A stretch of 28,212 nt of DNA. Origin: a virus. Below are positions 10,484 to 28,212 of this stretch, in pieces; the stretch's first letter is position 1; every line of letters begins with the position of its first letter. The notes below the pieces were generated by a model. It saw only the letters and a program-made list of their open reading frames with translations. It did no database searches and was not told the origin of the DNA. The position numbers were made by a program, and so were the translations under genes. The stretch spans positions 1 to 28,212 of IMG/VR virus record IMGVR_UViG_3300017719_000137, one strand, 5' to 3'.

Positions 10484-11662
10484 TTACAGAGAATTAACCT
10501 CTGTAATATCATCTTGACAATTGTCCATAGTTTCTGTGTAGAATGTGACTGCTTCTTTGCGCATCTCTTCCCACTCAGCATCAGTCTTAGCTGCATAAGT
10601 AGAACTGTGGTAAATGCTACCATTTACACCAGCTAGAGATGAATGTACAAAGTACTGCAAACATCTGATTGCACCAGTCTCGTCGTCAGGCACTGCACCA
10701 ACATGCATAGGATCAACAAAGATGTTGTGGATCTCACCGCTGTAGTATGCAATGTACTTAAGACCACCAAAGTGTAAACCCTTAACACAAGACATATTGT
10801 CGTTTGTATTTACATAAGACCAGTCTGGTAATCTGTGTGTGCAGCCAACTTTAATAAAGTGTCCTGGATTAGCATAACCATTAGGACCTTCACAGTAAAA
10901 TGCATCACCGCTATTACCCATGATAGCTGGTTCAAACAATCTATCTTCTACATGCTCAGGTAATCCACCTTCTTCAATCTCGCCTGTATCAGGGTTGAAT
11001 GTGCGCTTGTAACGATCAACTTGTTCGCCAGTCTCTGTGTCATATGCATGCAGAACCTCTTGAGATACTTTGTAGCCATTAAGTAGGCCCTCTTGAGTAA
11101 TCTTCATCTGATACATAGTAGACCTACGCTCAGCAACTTCTTCACTTAAGCCGTGCTCTTCTATCAACTCTTCTTTGAGTCTAGGATGTACATACTGTAA
11201 GTTAACAAAGTTAAAGAACTTTTCAGTGAACTTCTCACCTCTCTCACAGTTACAATCGTGCATCTTCTGACGAAGAATAGGATTACGTAAGAATCTTACC
11301 CACATCTTAACAAGAGGCATAAAATCTACCTCTTTATCTAGTGAGTCAAAGATACGATCAACCAAAGCTTGAGGCATAGGTATACTAGATACTACACCAT
11401 TGTGCTTTAAGAAGAACTCACCGGTGCCTTCGTTAACGTGAATCCATTCGCACTCAGTTTCTACAGTTGTTTTGTAGTCTTGGACAGTAAGCTTAGCAAA
11501 CTCTTCCATGAGTGCATTGTACTCGTCCATAGTTGTAACAGATTGTTGTCTGTTAGATAGCTCCATCATATTTCTATAAGTGCCTTCGGAGTAGTTGACA
11601 CTAAACGGCGTATCGCCGTACGAACCAGATATTTGGTTCTCAATAACATTAATTGTAATCAT
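10484..11662 (-). CDS. rIIB: rIIB-like protein
   Basis: A 392-residue protein. The C-terminal part (about 290-340) contains V-K-G-L-H-F-G-G-L-K-Y, then F-V-D-P-M-H-V-G-A-V-P-D-D and R-C-L-Q-Y-F-V. This is the conserved pattern of the T4 rIIB C-terminal domain (GLHVGS..YA, then NP.DVV.VP). The N-terminal half is mostly helical and less conserved. It lies directly downstream of the rIIA-type GHKL ATPase on the same strand, as in T4. Each of the two genes has its own terminator, which suggests they are separately and strongly transcribed. In T4 the rII proteins protect against exclusion by a resident prophage; the molecular role here is unproven. Confidence 0.85.
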   Translation of the reverse strand: MITINVIENQISGSYGDTPFSVNYSEGTYRNMMELSNRQQSVTTMDEYNALMEEFAKLTVQDYKTTVETECEWIHVNEGTGEFFLKHNGVVSSIPMPQALVDRIFDSLDKEVDFMPLVKMWVRFLRNPILRQKMHDCNCERGEKFTEKFFNFVNLQYVHPRLKEELIEEHGLSEEVAERRSTMYQMKITQEGLLNGYKVSQEVLHAYDTETGEQVDRYKRTFNPDTGEIEEGGLPEHVEDRLFEPAIMGNSGDAFYCEGPNGYANPGHFIKVGCTHRLPDWSYVNTNDNMSCVKGLHFGGLKYIAYYSGEIHNIFVDPMHVGAVPDDETGAIRCLQYFVHSSLAGVNGSIYHSSTYAAKTDAEWEEMRKEAVTFYTETMDNCQDDITEVNSL

Positions 11663-11707
11663 GATTTAATTAATTAATTAGGGTTAAAAATACTATAAAA
11701 ATTTCTA

Positions 11708-11750
11708 TTATACAAGTAAAACAGGGGATATTTCACCCCTGTAACTTGTT
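11708..11750 (-). terminator. Intrinsic terminator after rIIA
   Basis: Leftward, a perfect 7-bp stem ACAGGGG/CCCCTGT with an 8-base loop is followed by TTTTAC. An outer ACAAGT/ACTTGT pairing extends the hairpin. It begins just after the rIIA stop. The rest of the gap to rIIB (11663-11707) is very A/T-rich with a TTAA-type run before the rIIB start. Confidence 0.85.
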
Positions 11751-11755
11751 GATTA

Positions 11756-14494
11756 TCACCAGTCTAGCCTGCCTTTAGCGTCTAGGTAAATCTTGATTTC
11801 TTTGATAAGGTCTTGATCTAAATTTTCATCTCTGTTAGGAAAGAATGATATTTCTTCAATGCAATCCAATAGTGTATGCACACCCTCAGACCACTCTTGA
11901 AGTTCATCAAACTTATCCATCAACTCTTGATCTTGACCAACAGCTTCTGGTACATCTATCACAAATAATTCACGACTCTTCTGCTGTATAGCAGCGGCGT
12001 CATCGTTATCTTTGCAGAAGTTATGCATTTCCACAATCTTTTCGACCATAGGAAATATATCAGTATCTTTCATCCACTGACTTGTTCTTACATCTACATC
12101 AGCTGCATTGTATACAGCCTCATACTTTTTAAACAAGTCTAGATTAATGTCCTTAAGACAATATAAATACGTCTTACCTGTGATACTCTTCATTTTATCT
12201 GCAGTGTACCACTTAATTGCATGTTCATCCATAGTGTAGCCTCCGTTAGGTGTTAGTTGTAAAAAGAATTCATCAATGTGCTTAACATTAGAGTTCATAC
12301 TAATATGTTTAACATTGCTCTGTGATACTCTGATAATCTGCGGCGTATCCCAATCAAAATTAGTATTGTGATATACCTCACCTTTATCATTAGTTGTAGT
12401 AGTTGGTTTTGTAAACTCACCATTACCAAGTCTAACAGCTGGAGTATCAAAGAAAAACAGTCTATCGTCCTCACCTTGAGTTCTCCACCCAGGCATATCT
12501 TTGTACACTTGACGAATTCTAGGAGCAAAAGGATGTATCATGCCGCAAGCTACCATCAGTTTCTCATCATCAGCTGCAGTACCATAATAGGTAGTACGCT
12601 GAGTCTGCATAAGATCTTTTACCTTTGGCTCAATCTTATCTCTGATATAGCGATTATCACTACCTGAACTATGCCAGTGTTTTTCGTTGTATCTAAAAGT
12701 GTATGCAACCATACGCTCTTCTATCTTACGACGTTCAGCTGGTGTAATGTTCTCAAACTGTGCAATCTCCTTAGCTTTAGCAATCTCATCCTTGTATTCT
12801 TCTAGCCAATCTTCAGCTACCTCTATGTCATCGTAGTTACGACTATGAGTAGACTCAGTAATTAGCTCAAGAACTCTAGCACGTTTAGCTATACGCTTAG
12901 CATGTCTTTTCTTGTTCTCAGCAGAGTCAAGGGTAAGGCCAGAGCTAAACTCTGCAGACTTAATACAAATAATAGGACCATTACACTCGTGTATAAGATA
13001 CATATCTTTGTACTTGCTATGATTCTCTTCGCCCATTATAAAGATATTATTATCTCTCAATTGGCTGTAGTTCTCAATAGCACTTCTATCAATAATATCT
13101 TCACCGTTTTTATAGTCTCTAACTTTAGTTATAACCTCAACCTTCATACCTGCGAATAGATTCTTTACAGATTCATTCTTAAGTCTTGGGTCTGGTCCAA
13201 ACTTAGGCTTGAGCGCCTCCTGATCAATGATGTTAGATAGTCTACCTAGTACACTGCCGCTATCAGCTTTAGTTAAGACTTGCTTGCAAGCTAGTAGCCA
13301 GGCCACAAAGTCTGTTTGCTTAAGCTCGTCTTGTACAATATCAGTAGCTTCGTCAGCCGCTGCTATGATAACAGACTTGATGTATGCTTTAGTGTTCTCA
13401 TTCCATATCACTTTCTCACGTGACGGCGTAACATCTACACCCTCTTGCAATACAATCTCTTCACCAGTTTCTGGGTCATTGATTACCTGTCTTGCAGGAC
13501 ATTTAAAAGCAATTGGTCCCCACATCTGTTGCATCTCCAACTCACGGAAATCAACAAAGCCATAGTTAACACCGGTTGGCGCGCCTACATCCTTAGTCAA
13601 TACAATGTGCGGTTTACTAAACAAATATGTATCTGAGATAATTAAGTTGTCAGAGTTGTGCATCACATTCGGGTGAATGCTCTCTTCCCTTTTATAATCA
13701 TCCTCTGCAATACGTATAAACCTGATGTTAGGCATATACATCAACTGCTCTTCAACTGCCTCACGGTAGTCACGCCTGTGATGCTTCTTTACACCAAATG
13801 ATACTGTAGTACCATTCATAGCATCAGTAGGTACATAGTGCACTTTCGTTCCATCGCTAAGTACAACATGTGGATTAGCTTGGCCCGCTGCTGGGTTAAA
13901 CGCAGGTATAATAAAGTCTGTCTTGTAATTGTAACAGTTCATTTTGAACCTCTTACCATTATGTACAGTCTCTATAGTATAGAAATCTACACCGGTAGAC
14001 AATGCAACCTTAGCCCCAAGGCCAAATGCGCCAAAGTTCTCAGCTGTATTACGCTTAGTTGAATAACCAAGCTCAAGTACACCCTCAAGACGACGCTCAC
14101 CAATACCAATACCATGGTCAGTGATACTAACTACATCACAATAGCCCGTTCCTTCGTTCTCTTTGTATGTAATTAGTACGTCGTTGTTCTCTGCATCTAA
14201 ATGATCCAGGTTGTAATAGCTAATATCAAAGTTACTATCACTGTACTGTTCGCCGTGGCGCTCAATATAATAGTCTTCTACATTAGCTTTACCAGTTAGT
14301 ATTTCTATAGCCATCTCCTTCTCACGCTGTGCGTCGGCACCATTGGTAGCCAACTCACGTACGGTAGACGGGATAGGTGTAGAATACTGTGTTGATTGTA
14401 AGATGTCAAAGACCATCTTCTCTGCGCCTTTGTTAATCTTCTTTGCTAGACCTTCAGATCCCTTGATCTGTTTGTCAATCGTTTTTATACTCAT
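11756..14494 (-). CDS. rIIA: rIIA-like GHKL ATPase
   Basis: A 912-residue protein with an N-terminal Bergerat (GHKL) ATP-binding fold: N box R-E-L-A-T-N-G-A-D-A (Glu47, Asn51), G1 box D-H-G-I-G-I-G at 126-132, and G2 box N-F-G-A-F-G-L-G-A-K near 153-162. These match T4 rIIA and related Hsp90/MutL-type ATPases. A large, poorly recognisable C-terminal region follows. The rIIB gene lies immediately downstream, which supports the name. The start overlaps the end of the small upstream gene by 20 bases. It is likely a membrane-associated or exclusion-resistance factor, by analogy with T4 only. Confidence 0.9.
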   Translation of the reverse strand: MSIKTIDKQIKGSEGLAKKINKGAEKMVFDILQSTQYSTPIPSTVRELATNGADAQREKEMAIEILTGKANVEDYYIERHGEQYSDSNFDISYYNLDHLDAENNDVLITYKENEGTGYCDVVSITDHGIGIGERRLEGVLELGYSTKRNTAENFGAFGLGAKVALSTGVDFYTIETVHNGKRFKMNCYNYKTDFIIPAFNPAAGQANPHVVLSDGTKVHYVPTDAMNGTTVSFGVKKHHRRDYREAVEEQLMYMPNIRFIRIAEDDYKREESIHPNVMHNSDNLIISDTYLFSKPHIVLTKDVGAPTGVNYGFVDFRELEMQQMWGPIAFKCPARQVINDPETGEEIVLQEGVDVTPSREKVIWNENTKAYIKSVIIAAADEATDIVQDELKQTDFVAWLLACKQVLTKADSGSVLGRLSNIIDQEALKPKFGPDPRLKNESVKNLFAGMKVEVITKVRDYKNGEDIIDRSAIENYSQLRDNNIFIMGEENHSKYKDMYLIHECNGPIICIKSAEFSSGLTLDSAENKKRHAKRIAKRARVLELITESTHSRNYDDIEVAEDWLEEYKDEIAKAKEIAQFENITPAERRKIEERMVAYTFRYNEKHWHSSGSDNRYIRDKIEPKVKDLMQTQRTTYYGTAADDEKLMVACGMIHPFAPRIRQVYKDMPGWRTQGEDDRLFFFDTPAVRLGNGEFTKPTTTTNDKGEVYHNTNFDWDTPQIIRVSQSNVKHISMNSNVKHIDEFFLQLTPNGGYTMDEHAIKWYTADKMKSITGKTYLYCLKDINLDLFKKYEAVYNAADVDVRTSQWMKDTDIFPMVEKIVEMHNFCKDNDDAAAIQQKSRELFVIDVPEAVGQDQELMDKFDELQEWSEGVHTLLDCIEEISFFPNRDENLDQDLIKEIKIYLDAKGRLDW

Positions 14495-18412: not shown

Positions 18413-19267
18413 TTAAAATATATATCTAATAGTGTTCCAAGGAATAATACTCCCGTGCAATTCTTTAAACTGCTGTATAAACTTACCCTTGAATTTAAGT
18501 TTATATCTCAGGTTCTCGCCACCATATTGTGACTTCTTAATCTCTTGTATATCTGGTGTCCACAGCGTTACTTCAGCATTTGGGTGCCTCTGTAAGTTGA
18601 CTTTGTGTTTCTTAAAGTTATGTGTAAGGAAGATAACTTCCGCTAGCACTTTATCTTTATGTAACACAACATCATCTAGGTCCTTGAATAGTTGAGCGTA
18701 GTCATCTAGCCATCCGTCATATACTATGACAGGACTAAAGTTGACATGTACATCATAGCCTGCATCTACAAATCTATTGATAGCATTTATCCTATCATAT
18801 ATCTTTGATGTGTTGGGCTCGTGTATGTCTGACATTTTTTGCGGCATTAGACTAAATCTAATACGCACTTTACCTTGCGGGTCAAATGTCAGTAGTTTAT
18901 CATTAACATACTTGGTAGCAAAGCTAGCCATAGCAACCGGGTGAGTTCTAAAGAATTCAAAGATGCGTTCCCAATCATGGTACTTAGCATGCAATGCAAA
19001 ATCTTCGTTACAGCTTATATCATAAGTTGTATGCTCCGGGTGTGTTTGGTTAGGCTTATCTACTGGTGTAAAGTATGCATGATTGTTTACCTCTGTAAGT
19101 ATATCACCTACATTCTTTGCAACAGTCAGGCCATCGGGCTTGTGTCGTTTCATGTAACAATAGCTACAATCATACAAACAACCGTGTCCAAAACTAGGCG
19201 TGATAAAATCTGTAGACCTACCAGACTCTCGTATAGTAAATGTCTTTCTAGTAACTTCAGTTATCAC
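18413..19267 (-). CDS. SplB-like radical SAM enzyme (spore photoproduct lyase family)
   Basis: A 284-residue protein with S-F-G-H-G-C-L-Y-D-C-S-Y-C-Y near 25-38. Cys30, Cys34 and Cys37 form the C-x3-C-x2-C site that holds a 4Fe-4S cluster and cleaves S-adenosylmethionine. The order after it (an S-C-N-E-D-F-A segment near 85, I-R-F-S-L-M-P near 135 and V-H-V-N-F-S-P-V near 175) fits the SplB/DUF-type spore photoproduct lyase relatives. These split thymine photoproducts directly. The start is a GTG overlapping the DnaB-type helicase stop as GTGA. It sits in the replication block, so UV-damage repair of phage DNA or another DNA modification is likely; the exact substrate is not shown. Confidence 0.78.
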   Translation of the reverse strand: MITEVTRKTFTIRESGRSTDFITPSFGHGCLYDCSYCYMKRHKPDGLTVAKNVGDILTEVNNHAYFTPVDKPNQTHPEHTTYDISCNEDFALHAKYHDWERIFEFFRTHPVAMASFATKYVNDKLLTFDPQGKVRIRFSLMPQKMSDIHEPNTSKIYDRINAINRFVDAGYDVHVNFSPVIVYDGWLDDYAQLFKDLDDVVLHKDKVLAEVIFLTHNFKKHKVNLQRHPNAEVTLWTPDIQEIKKSQYGGENLRYKLKFKGKFIQQFKELHGSIIPWNTIRYIF

Positions 19268-27208: not shown

Positions 27209-27424
27209 ATGGTATCAGAAAATGAAAAAACACAAACTTGCGGAGATAGAAACTGCGTATGTTGTAAAGGAGAAGCTACTTGTCCTCAATGCCCAGAGCA
27301 TTGTCAATGTGGACAACCTAAAAGTCACATAGGATTTGACGATTGGATTGAAGATATGGAAGATGGCGATCAGCCAGAAGCTTGCTCAATTGATAACCCA
27401 GACTGCGAGAATTGCGGCAGTTAA
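27209..27424 (+). CDS. Small cysteine-rich acidic protein
   Basis: A 71-residue protein with clustered cysteines: C-G-D-R-N-C-V-C-C near 11-19, C-P-Q-C-P-E-H-C-Q-C near 25-34, and C-S-I-D-N-P-D-C-E-N-C near the C-terminus. It ends one residue after the C-G. The pattern could bind one or two zinc ions or an iron-sulfur cluster. The middle is acidic (D-D-W-I-E-D-M-E-D-G-D). An overlapping frame from 27090 covers the same bases but lacks a promoter-consistent start. The gene is preceded by a -7 element so close that translation may start at the 5' end of the mRNA. I do not recognise the family. Confidence 0.72.
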   Translation: MVSENEKTQTCGDRNCVCCKGEATCPQCPEHCQCGQPKSHIGFDDWIEDMEDGDQPEACSIDNPDCENCGS

Positions 27425-27444
27425 AAAATTTTGTGTAACTTTGC
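27412..27444 (+). promoter_or_regulatory. Bacteroidetes-type promoter before the structured leader
   Basis: TTG (27412-27414), 21 bases, TAACTTTGC (27436-27444). It matches the TTTG-N19-21-TAnnTTTG consensus and overlaps the end of the Cys-rich gene. The start point is expected near 27450. Confidence 0.75.
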
Positions 27445-27449
27445 ACAAT

Positions 27450-27745
27450 TAGAGACACGCATATTGCGTATCACCCCAGAGGGCCGAGAGGTAGTTATGG
27501 GGTCAGAAGTTGGATTGTAGATCCTAAATAAGGATTAGAGTTTTCTCCAATAGTCTCGGAAAGGAAGGATATAGCCCCTAGGTTGGACACATGTCACATA
27601 AGTAGGTGTGGTGAATTAACACTAGTTTTAGTGTCCATGGGTCTCCGGTAGTGCCGGAAGAACTACTAGAATGGTAAAATTCCAACTGAAATTGGTGTCC
27701 TAAAGGGGGAACCTGTATCTAAGCCTTAAATCTTAAAACAATTTA
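27450..27745 (+). ncRNA. Candidate structured RNA or long structured leader
   Basis: About 300 bases without a usable ORF lie between a host-type promoter and the lipoprotein gene. Hairpins: ACGCA/TGCGT (27457-27469), ACCCCA/TGGGGT (27473-27503), ACACTA/TAGTGT (27620-27635), TCCGG/CCGGA (27643-27657) and CCAA/TTGG (27682-27695). A long-range composite stem pairs CCCCT and GGACAC (27575-27590) with GTGTCC and AGGGG (27695-27708) and encloses three of them. AGGTT (27580-27584) can instead pair with AACCT (27710-27714), which suggests alternative folds. It may be a free ncRNA or a regulatory 5' leader; I recognise no known RNA family and found no group I intron core. Confidence 0.55.
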
Positions 27746-27750
27746 CTTAC

Positions 27751-28059
27751 ATGAAATACTTACTTATCACTACACTAGCTGTAATGCTAGCCTGGGAACC
27801 TATAATTAAGAAAGACAAGATTATGCATTTCGGCGTGGGCTATATCTCTGCTCATGCTGCAACTAATATTCTACCTGAATATACAGATAACAAAAAGGTT
27901 ATTAAGTATGGTCCGTTTGTAGCTTGCTTAGTTCTTGGTGTTACTAAAGAACTTGTAGATAAGTATGATTCAAACCCTAAATCTACCTTTGAATGGGCAG
28001 ATATAGCCTACACAGCTGGAGGAGGCATAACTTTTTTCACTATTTCTTTGGATTTGTAA
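27751..28059 (+). CDS. DUF2279/YfiM-like small envelope protein
   Basis: A 102-residue protein with an N-terminal hydrophobic segment (L-L-I-T-T-L-A-V-M-L-A-W) that could be a signal or anchor. It then has D-K-I-M-H-F-G-V-G-Y, G-V-T-K-E-L-V-D-K-Y-D and F-E-W-A-D-I-A-Y-T-A-G-G-G. The spaced D-K-x-x-H-F, K-E-x-x-D and D-I-x-x-x-x-x-G pattern matches DUF2279/YfiM-like small envelope proteins. No lipobox cysteine is seen, so a transmembrane anchor is more likely than a lipoprotein. In phages such proteins are sometimes near lysis genes, but no holin or endolysin is in this window. Its mRNA likely carries the structured leader. Confidence 0.68.
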   Translation: MKYLLITTLAVMLAWEPIIKKDKIMHFGVGYISAHAATNILPEYTDNKKVIKYGPFVACLVLGVTKELVDKYDSNPKSTFEWADIAYTAGGGITFFTISLDL

Positions 28060-28080
28060 ACAATTTTATTATAACTTTGC
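28047..28080 (+). promoter_or_regulatory. Bacteroidetes-type promoter for the GroES-like gene
   Basis: TTTG (28047-28050), 21 bases, TAACTTTGC (28072-28080). The -7 element is identical to that of the promoter at 27412-27444. The start point would be near 28086, about 20 bases before the GroES-like ATG. Confidence 0.75.
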
Positions 28081-28104: not shown

Positions 28105-28212
28105 ATGGCAAAGGAATTTACATTTCAACCCTTCGGAGCGTGGATCATTGTACCACGTCCAGATGCAAAAAAGACGGAATCAGGAATCATCCTTGATGAC
28201 GCAACTGCAAAA
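28105..28212 (+). CDS. groES: GroES-like co-chaperonin (3' partial)
   Basis: Thirty-six codons are visible before the window ends. The reading is F-G-A-W-I-I-V-P-R-P-D-A-K-K-T-E-S-G-I-I-L, which follows the GroES N-terminal pattern (P-L-G-D-R-V-L-V, then E-E-K-T-A-G-G-I-I-L-P). GroES caps the GroEL chamber; phages such as T4 (gp31) encode one to fold their own capsid protein with host GroEL. The ATG lies about 20 bases after a host-type promoter start point. The mobile loop and C-terminal half are outside the window, so completeness cannot be judged. Confidence 0.85.
   Translation, partial: MAKEFTFQPFGAWIIVPRPDAKKTESGIILDDATAK

Follow-up and report, generated by a model that had tools for sequence, protein, structure and literature searches.

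What does a viral genome keep in a gene-free stretch of about 300 nt directly behind a host-type promoter? The question arises near the right end of a 28.2-kb linear fragment (positions 1 to 28,212; here, the window) of IMG/VR record IMGVR_UViG_3300017719_000137. An earlier note had proposed that a structured RNA is made there, either as a free RNA that manipulates the host or as a leader, perhaps switchable, of the next gene.

Locus and promoter

The leftward genes of the window encode a family A DNA polymerase, DnaB, a helicase, UDG, a 5'-3' exonuclease, a Sak4-like AAA protein and a spore photoproduct lyase. Since the terminase of a relative is 38-42% identical to Crassvirales terminases, the window was assigned to a marine crAss-like phage. 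Two further observations concern the gene content of this phage: rIIA- and rIIB-like genes lie at 10484-14494 (-) (phrog_612, E 1e-17; phrog_609, E 3e-7), and the lyase-like gene at 18413-19267 (-) is of the radical SAM type (PF20903, E 5e-31).

No ORF of at least 60 aa is present from 27424 to 27751, so the stretch is gene-free as first described, and a reading as coding region was dropped. The features of the locus are as follows.

27209-27424 (+): small cysteine-rich ORF (...NPDCENCGS), upstream neighbour, outside the RNA
27412-27414 (+): TTG, possibly the -33 element, 21 nt upstream of the -7 box, read from the sequence
27436-27443 (+): -7 box TAACTTTG of a Flavobacteriia sigma-A promoter
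27448 to about 27725 (+): structured RNA of about 280 nt, 215.8 bits with model R1
27751-28059 (+): small membrane/lipoprotein-like ORF (phrog_26616, E 4e-5), an occasional downstream neighbour only
28072-28079 (+): putative separate GroES promoter (TAACTTTG), read from the sequence
28105-28212 (+), running off the window: GroES (Cpn10) gene; a relative matches PF00166, E 2e-7

In Flavobacteria, the sigma-A -7 box has the form TAnnTTTG and is located at -12 to -5 (PMC9723704). With this spacing, transcription is predicted to start at about 27448, four bases before the first helix, P1. The proposed consensus host promoter was borne out: TAACTTTG fits the box, and TAnnTTTG (A tolerated at the last base) stands at the same place in 99 of the 107 distinct homologues listed. 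With a strict TTTG ending it is found at this site in 87% of homologues; shuffled flanks contain the motif in 3%. Most of the eight homologues that lack the motif directly follow the stop codon of the cysteine-rich gene, which precedes the RNA in about 30 loci of group A (defined below); in some of these the RNA start abuts the stop codon.

Between the RNA and the ORF that follows it, 75 of 101 loci have a second TAnnTTTG promoter, of the kind seen before GroES in the window; the expectation from shuffles is 10.6. Together, the two promoters bracket the RNA as a unit of its own. An intrinsic terminator behind the RNA was found in 0/101 loci; its 3' end is therefore approximate, and 3' ends would arise by processing or Rho, unless the RNA belongs to a longer transcript.

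Homologues in phages

The protein encoded downstream led to locus L007, where the upstream sequence and the window share 75% identity across ~300 nt. A search of IMG/VR with a conserved 17-mer yielded 82 true homologues, and a pattern that omitted the covarying ends revealed a second clade. Among the matches listed there are at least 139 loci with at least 107 distinct sequences; the terminases indicate that the phages are crAss-like. A few loci represent the same contig twice, and statistics were therefore calculated on distinct sequences. Group A, which includes the window, has hairpin P1a and the P3 strands TTGGA/TCCAA, while group B has GCAAC/GTTGC in P1 and CGGA/TCCG in P3. Part of the invariance of GGATTGTAG and AGAGTTTTCTCC stems from the search patterns, which do not affect the covariation seen elsewhere.

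In 12 long phage records, R1 found exactly one copy of the RNA each. No match was obtained by blastn against named phages (queries: the window and a composite of four variants), by R1 in bases 1-50000 and 60001-100418 of Cellulophaga phage phi14:2, or with the pattern ACATCGGWTAGTAG...TTTCNCCGG in IMG/VR. A single weak match of 21 bits in the gut crAss-like phage cr60_1 (full R1 search) was not trusted, and a 13-bit R1 match in L009 was rejected.

Secondary structure

The minimum free energy of the window RNA is -86.2 kcal/mol (z = -2.1), a value reached by 4 of 200 shuffles and thus suggestive, short of proof. The earlier note had counted at least five hairpins; this picture of a hairpin-rich stretch was extended by comparison of homologues to about eleven helices, all on the + strand.

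27452-27456 (GAGAC) with 27553-27557 (GTCTC): P1, closes the 5' domain; compensatory exchanges
27457-27469: P1a, hairpin ACGCATATTGCGT; group A only, compensatory within group A
27473-27477 with 27499-27503: P2; 94% paired, double changes in 4/5 pairs
27509-27514 with 27546-27551: P3; 100% paired, TTGGA/TCCAA versus CGGA/TCCG, GU 109, AC 0
27521-27525 with 27531-27535: P4, hairpin with loop AAATA; 97-100% paired, at most 5 pair types per position
27563-27564 with 27686-27687: P5, outer part; 99-100% paired, covarying, E 0.01, helix-swap z -5.3
27567-27568 with 27682-27683: P5, inner part; support in group A only, 42.5% paired over all
27569-27573 with 27714-27718: P6; 94-96% paired, helix-swap z only -2.2
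27578-27581 with 27666-27669: P7; longer in many relatives, double changes in 3/4 pairs, helix-swap z -10.5
27584-27590 with 27631-27637: P8; >99% paired, AT/GC/TA and CG/GT/GC/AT exchanges, helix-swap z -10.8
27595-27597 with 27606-27608: P9, hairpin; 99-100% paired
27610-27623: P10, hairpin GGTG-AATTAA-CACT with conserved loop; 99-100% paired, GU 42, AC 0
27644-27658: P11, hairpin, TCCGG/CCGGA in the window; base 97-100% paired, TA/CG/GC/AT exchanges
27703-27708: AAGGGG near the 3' end, apparently unpaired; conserved in phage and chromosomal members

Across phages, P1 reads GAGAC/GTCTC, GAGGC/GCCTT, GAAGC/GCTTC or GCAAC/GTTGC. P2 encloses a small hairpin, CC-GAGA-GG (27484-27491), whose loop is GNRA-like in most of group A, and P3 a conserved internal loop, TTGTAG/TAGAGTTTTC. 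The pair flanking P9 covaries in most relatives (E 0.016) and is T-T in the window. P6 varies mainly by A-U/G-U exchanges (first pair: GU 26, AU 10, GC 4). Because P6 crosses P5, the two would form a pseudoknot, which we regard as likely from the alignment.

In alignment A1 (41 sequences), 94.7% of cells were paired in the named structure, compared to 34-47% for slid controls. Double changes affected 21 pairs (12.7 in shuffles) and 175 cells (57.8 in shuffles), and 0/500 shuffles reached these values; the number of further pair types was not above shuffles. In a phylogeny-aware test, in which the substitutions of each column were re-placed randomly on the tree (60 null alignments), eight column pairs had E<0.05. 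All were complementary, and they lie in P4 (three pairs at E 1e-6 to 1e-2), P5, P8, P9 and P11. P3, P4, P8 and P10 combined contain 223 G-U versus 1 A-C cells on the + strand, which indicates that the + strand RNA, not a DNA cruciform, is the selected form. Judged from the aligned sequences, the helices are kept by compensatory change and the fold is confirmed. The check for conserved pairing in relatives was thus positive for the RNA as such: helices, promoter and position are all conserved, and the proposal of a structured RNA from a host promoter is strongly supported.

The specific pairings first proposed fared differently. The two halves of a long-range stem, 27575-27590/27695-27708, are paired in only 68% and 52% of homologue cells, and GGACAC (27585-27590) pairs instead with GTGTCC (27631-27636) in P8, where compensatory changes occur. 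A switch between two folds had been suggested for AGGTT. Across homologues, 75% of the AGGTT/AACCT cells are paired; the two sides do not change in concert, and P7 and P6, with which this pairing competes, are better supported. The comparison therefore does not favour two folds, although the window molecule by itself may still adopt them.

Genomic context

In both groups, the RNA sits between a leftward replication block and a rightward block that runs from GroES to the terminase. The right side was co-directional with the RNA in 112/112 loci, the left side mostly opposite in 68/74, and the DNA polymerase was on the left side and strand in all 33 loci where it was seen. The immediate neighbours vary. 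GroES is the first gene 3' of the RNA in 67 of 101 scored loci, with others elsewhere, and whole genes, several in some loci, are inserted between the RNA and GroES. Such variation speaks against regulation of a single gene and is compatible with a free RNA or with an element serving the late operon as a whole.

This bears on the suggestion that the RNA is a leader of the envelope-protein gene, that is, the ORF at 27751-28059. Its family directly follows the RNA in only 3 of the 101 scored loci, so such a role is unlikely; the inserted genes before GroES and the frequent second promoter also speak against it. The pattern expected of a one-gene leader or riboswitch was likewise not found, as the next gene varies and 75/101 loci have the second promoter.

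Relatives outside crAss-like phages

Chromosomal relatives surfaced only with covariance models. R1 detected diverged homologues in one of 149 sampled Flavobacteriaceae genomes, in 4/19 species of the genus concerned, and further relatives on Bacteroidia chromosomes. A second model, R2, largely a sequence profile, found more, with scores up to 164 bits; these are in part high by construction, since R2 includes such chromosomal sequences. Independent of R2 are G1024, G1096, G1152, G1188 and G1182 (78-106 bits) and G1077 and G1084 (49 and 41 bits); R2 scores of 23-27 bits at G157, G542, G139 and G1011 were left out of the claimed family. Fourteen matches of an exact-core pattern in GTDB representatives were judged chance, as their flanks show nothing of the RNA. 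A blastn search for the chromosomal type in plasmids and phages gave no match.

The relatives retain P1 and P3 as well as AAGGGG near the 3' end, with P1 rebuilt as GTAAC/GTTAC or GGTACT/AGTACC. Their neighbours are tyrosine integrases, serine resolvases, excisionase-like HTH_17 genes, a NikA-like gene and an AAA_25 ATPase. By these sequence comparisons, the relatives in Bacteroidia integrative elements are diverged and statistically strong. A 1.1-kb block of the RNA, a 64-aa ORF and an HTH ORF (L184, L199, L200, L201) is 92-95% conserved in several Flavobacteriaceae chromosomes and also occurs in partial second copies, as a small mobile unit.

A very divergent candidate was noticed in an unrelated-looking tailed phage (two IMG/VR records; L226:3557 and L227:11282, both +). 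It has the chromosomal hairpin, a P1 of GTAGA/TCTAC and a host-type promoter, lies where divergent genes meet and is followed by a terminase-like gene. R2 does not score it, and it remains a lead.

Comparison with known RNA classes

The Infernal search against Rfam proposed in the earlier note was run and assigned the RNA to no Rfam 15 family. The window had no match at gathering, and at E<=10 the window and L126 gave only chance matches (E>8). L182 and L183 gave nothing at E<=0.1, and chromosomal member L224 gave sub-threshold matches only (best E 0.16). ARAGORN and RF00023 were negative for tRNA and tmRNA in the window. A tmRNA-like gene is present in a related phage record (L016:1480-1852 (-), RF00023, 55.5 bits). 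For group I introns there was no match at E<=10, the locus is intergenic and the helix order differs. RNase P RNA gave no Rfam match, although the crossing order of P5 and P6 recalls it. A guide-RNA idea (RAGATH-18/TnpB; PMC11061315) was set aside, no TnpB-like neighbour having been noticed.

GOLLD and ROOL are large structured phage-encoded RNAs of unknown function (PMC12286853). GOLLD itself (RF02032) occurs in two marine crAss-like phages of the set, where its 3' domains were found at L011:2695-3086 (-) (223 bits) and L132:3107-3489 (-) (212 bits), ~3 kb from the new RNA and on the opposite strand; RF02032 does not match the new RNA there. In contrast to GOLLD and ROOL, which exceed 600-800 nt, the new RNA measures ~280 nt. 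It shares no sequence or structure match with them, has a different genome place and strand, and no tRNA island was seen near it. RAGATH RNAs and the hatchet ribozyme are structured RNAs of the same phage order: RAGATH-7, RAGATH-9, RAGATH-20 and a hatchet ribozyme lie in the left block of cr60_1 (L181, 2273-6914 (-)). The models RF03159, RF03146 and RF03048 fire on cr60_1 but do not match the new RNA, and the hatchet model misses it as well.

OLE RNA and 6S-flavo (RF01685) are stand-alone bacterial RNAs thought to use host machinery. Unlike these, the new RNA has no Rfam match, no long interrupted hairpin of the 6S type and no conserved protein partner gene. No description of it was found in open-licence papers on crAss-like phages, satellites and noncoding RNA. 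By sequence and fold it forms a separate family, which resembles GOLLD, ROOL and RAGATH in kind. That it represents a known class in diverged form (group I intron, RNase P, tmRNA, 6S, RAGATH or GOLLD) is highly improbable in view of the Rfam results, even though it is pseudoknotted, has a length of ~280 nt and shares these or related phages with GOLLD, RAGATH, hatchet and tmRNA.

Proposed function and alternatives

The locus is probably best explained by a new family of stand-alone, trans-acting structured RNA of Bacteroidota mobile elements that would serve as a scaffold for a ribonucleoprotein with a host factor. Host RNA polymerase would transcribe it from a dedicated sigma-A promoter at the divergence of the leftward replication block and the rightward structural block. 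The folded RNA, in which the P5/P6 pseudoknot would lock a 5' domain (P1-P4) to a 3' domain (P7-P11), would act in trans. It would also be stable and bind a host factor. That it is free and works in trans is suggested by its variable neighbours, the promoter behind it, its occurrence in elements of unrelated kinds and its single copy in phages. A host partner is an economical guess because none of the neighbouring phage protein genes is shared by the entire family. Against a stand-alone RNA, a role in cis would also be in keeping with its invariable position ahead of the late block, terminators are lacking in all 101 loci, eight of 107 loci have no promoter of their own, and P6 varies mainly by A-U/G-U exchanges.

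The main rival, a smaller though real possibility, is a cis-acting leader of the whole late operon. For example by antitermination or processing, it would act on polymerase entering the GroES-terminase-structural block, as do put RNA and EAR, conserved, shorter, cis-acting RNAs at the start of long operons. Such a leader would account for an RNA that always lies just before the late block and runs with it, begins ~4 nt after the predicted +1 and lacks a terminator, and for the very divergent candidate in the same place in the L226/L227 phage. However, the second promoter that usually follows would give late transcripts without the RNA, several genes are inserted after it in some loci, and, unlike put and EAR, it has relatives in small integrative elements without a long operon behind. 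A leader or switch for the adjacent gene alone, be it the envelope-protein gene or GroES, is quite improbable. In the window, the RNA does end ~30 nt before the ORF at 27751-28059, which shows no promoter of its own; across loci, however, this gene is rarely first, GroES usually has its own promoter and the alternative pairing is not conserved. The position between the replication and terminase blocks, together with the occurrence in integrative elements, of which one has a gene for an AAA_25 ATPase, could also suit an RNA that primes replication like ColE1 RNAII or joins packaging like phi29 pRNA. This is improbable, as the terminase is ~4 kb away and, to our knowledge, pRNA of the phi29 type is restricted to phi29-like phages.

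A bolder reading, which we hold to be doubtful, is that a previously unrecognised RNA class common to Bacteroidota integrative elements, lytic crAss-like phages and one or more other tailed phages takes over a host machine. Bacteroidota ribosomes normally keep the anti-Shine-Dalgarno hidden. The conserved, apparently unpaired AAGGGG(G) could pair with CCUCCUU, this anti-Shine-Dalgarno of 16S rRNA, over 6-7 bp, one of them G-U, a speculation from one motif; if true, the RNA would bind ribosomes and not encode anything.

Phages of the crAss-like type are abundant and intensely studied, yet this RNA has neither a report among the open-licence papers searched nor an Rfam entry. As a covariance-supported RNA at a genome switch point, with conserved gene order and promoter, it lends itself directly to infection transcriptomics and genetics and is a smaller, tractable addition to the phage RNAs without a known job, such as GOLLD, ROOL and RAGATH. 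Its relatives in chromosomal integrative elements suggest a function from which mobile elements of very different kinds may benefit within these hosts, for example by controlling a host machine that they share or by defending against it.
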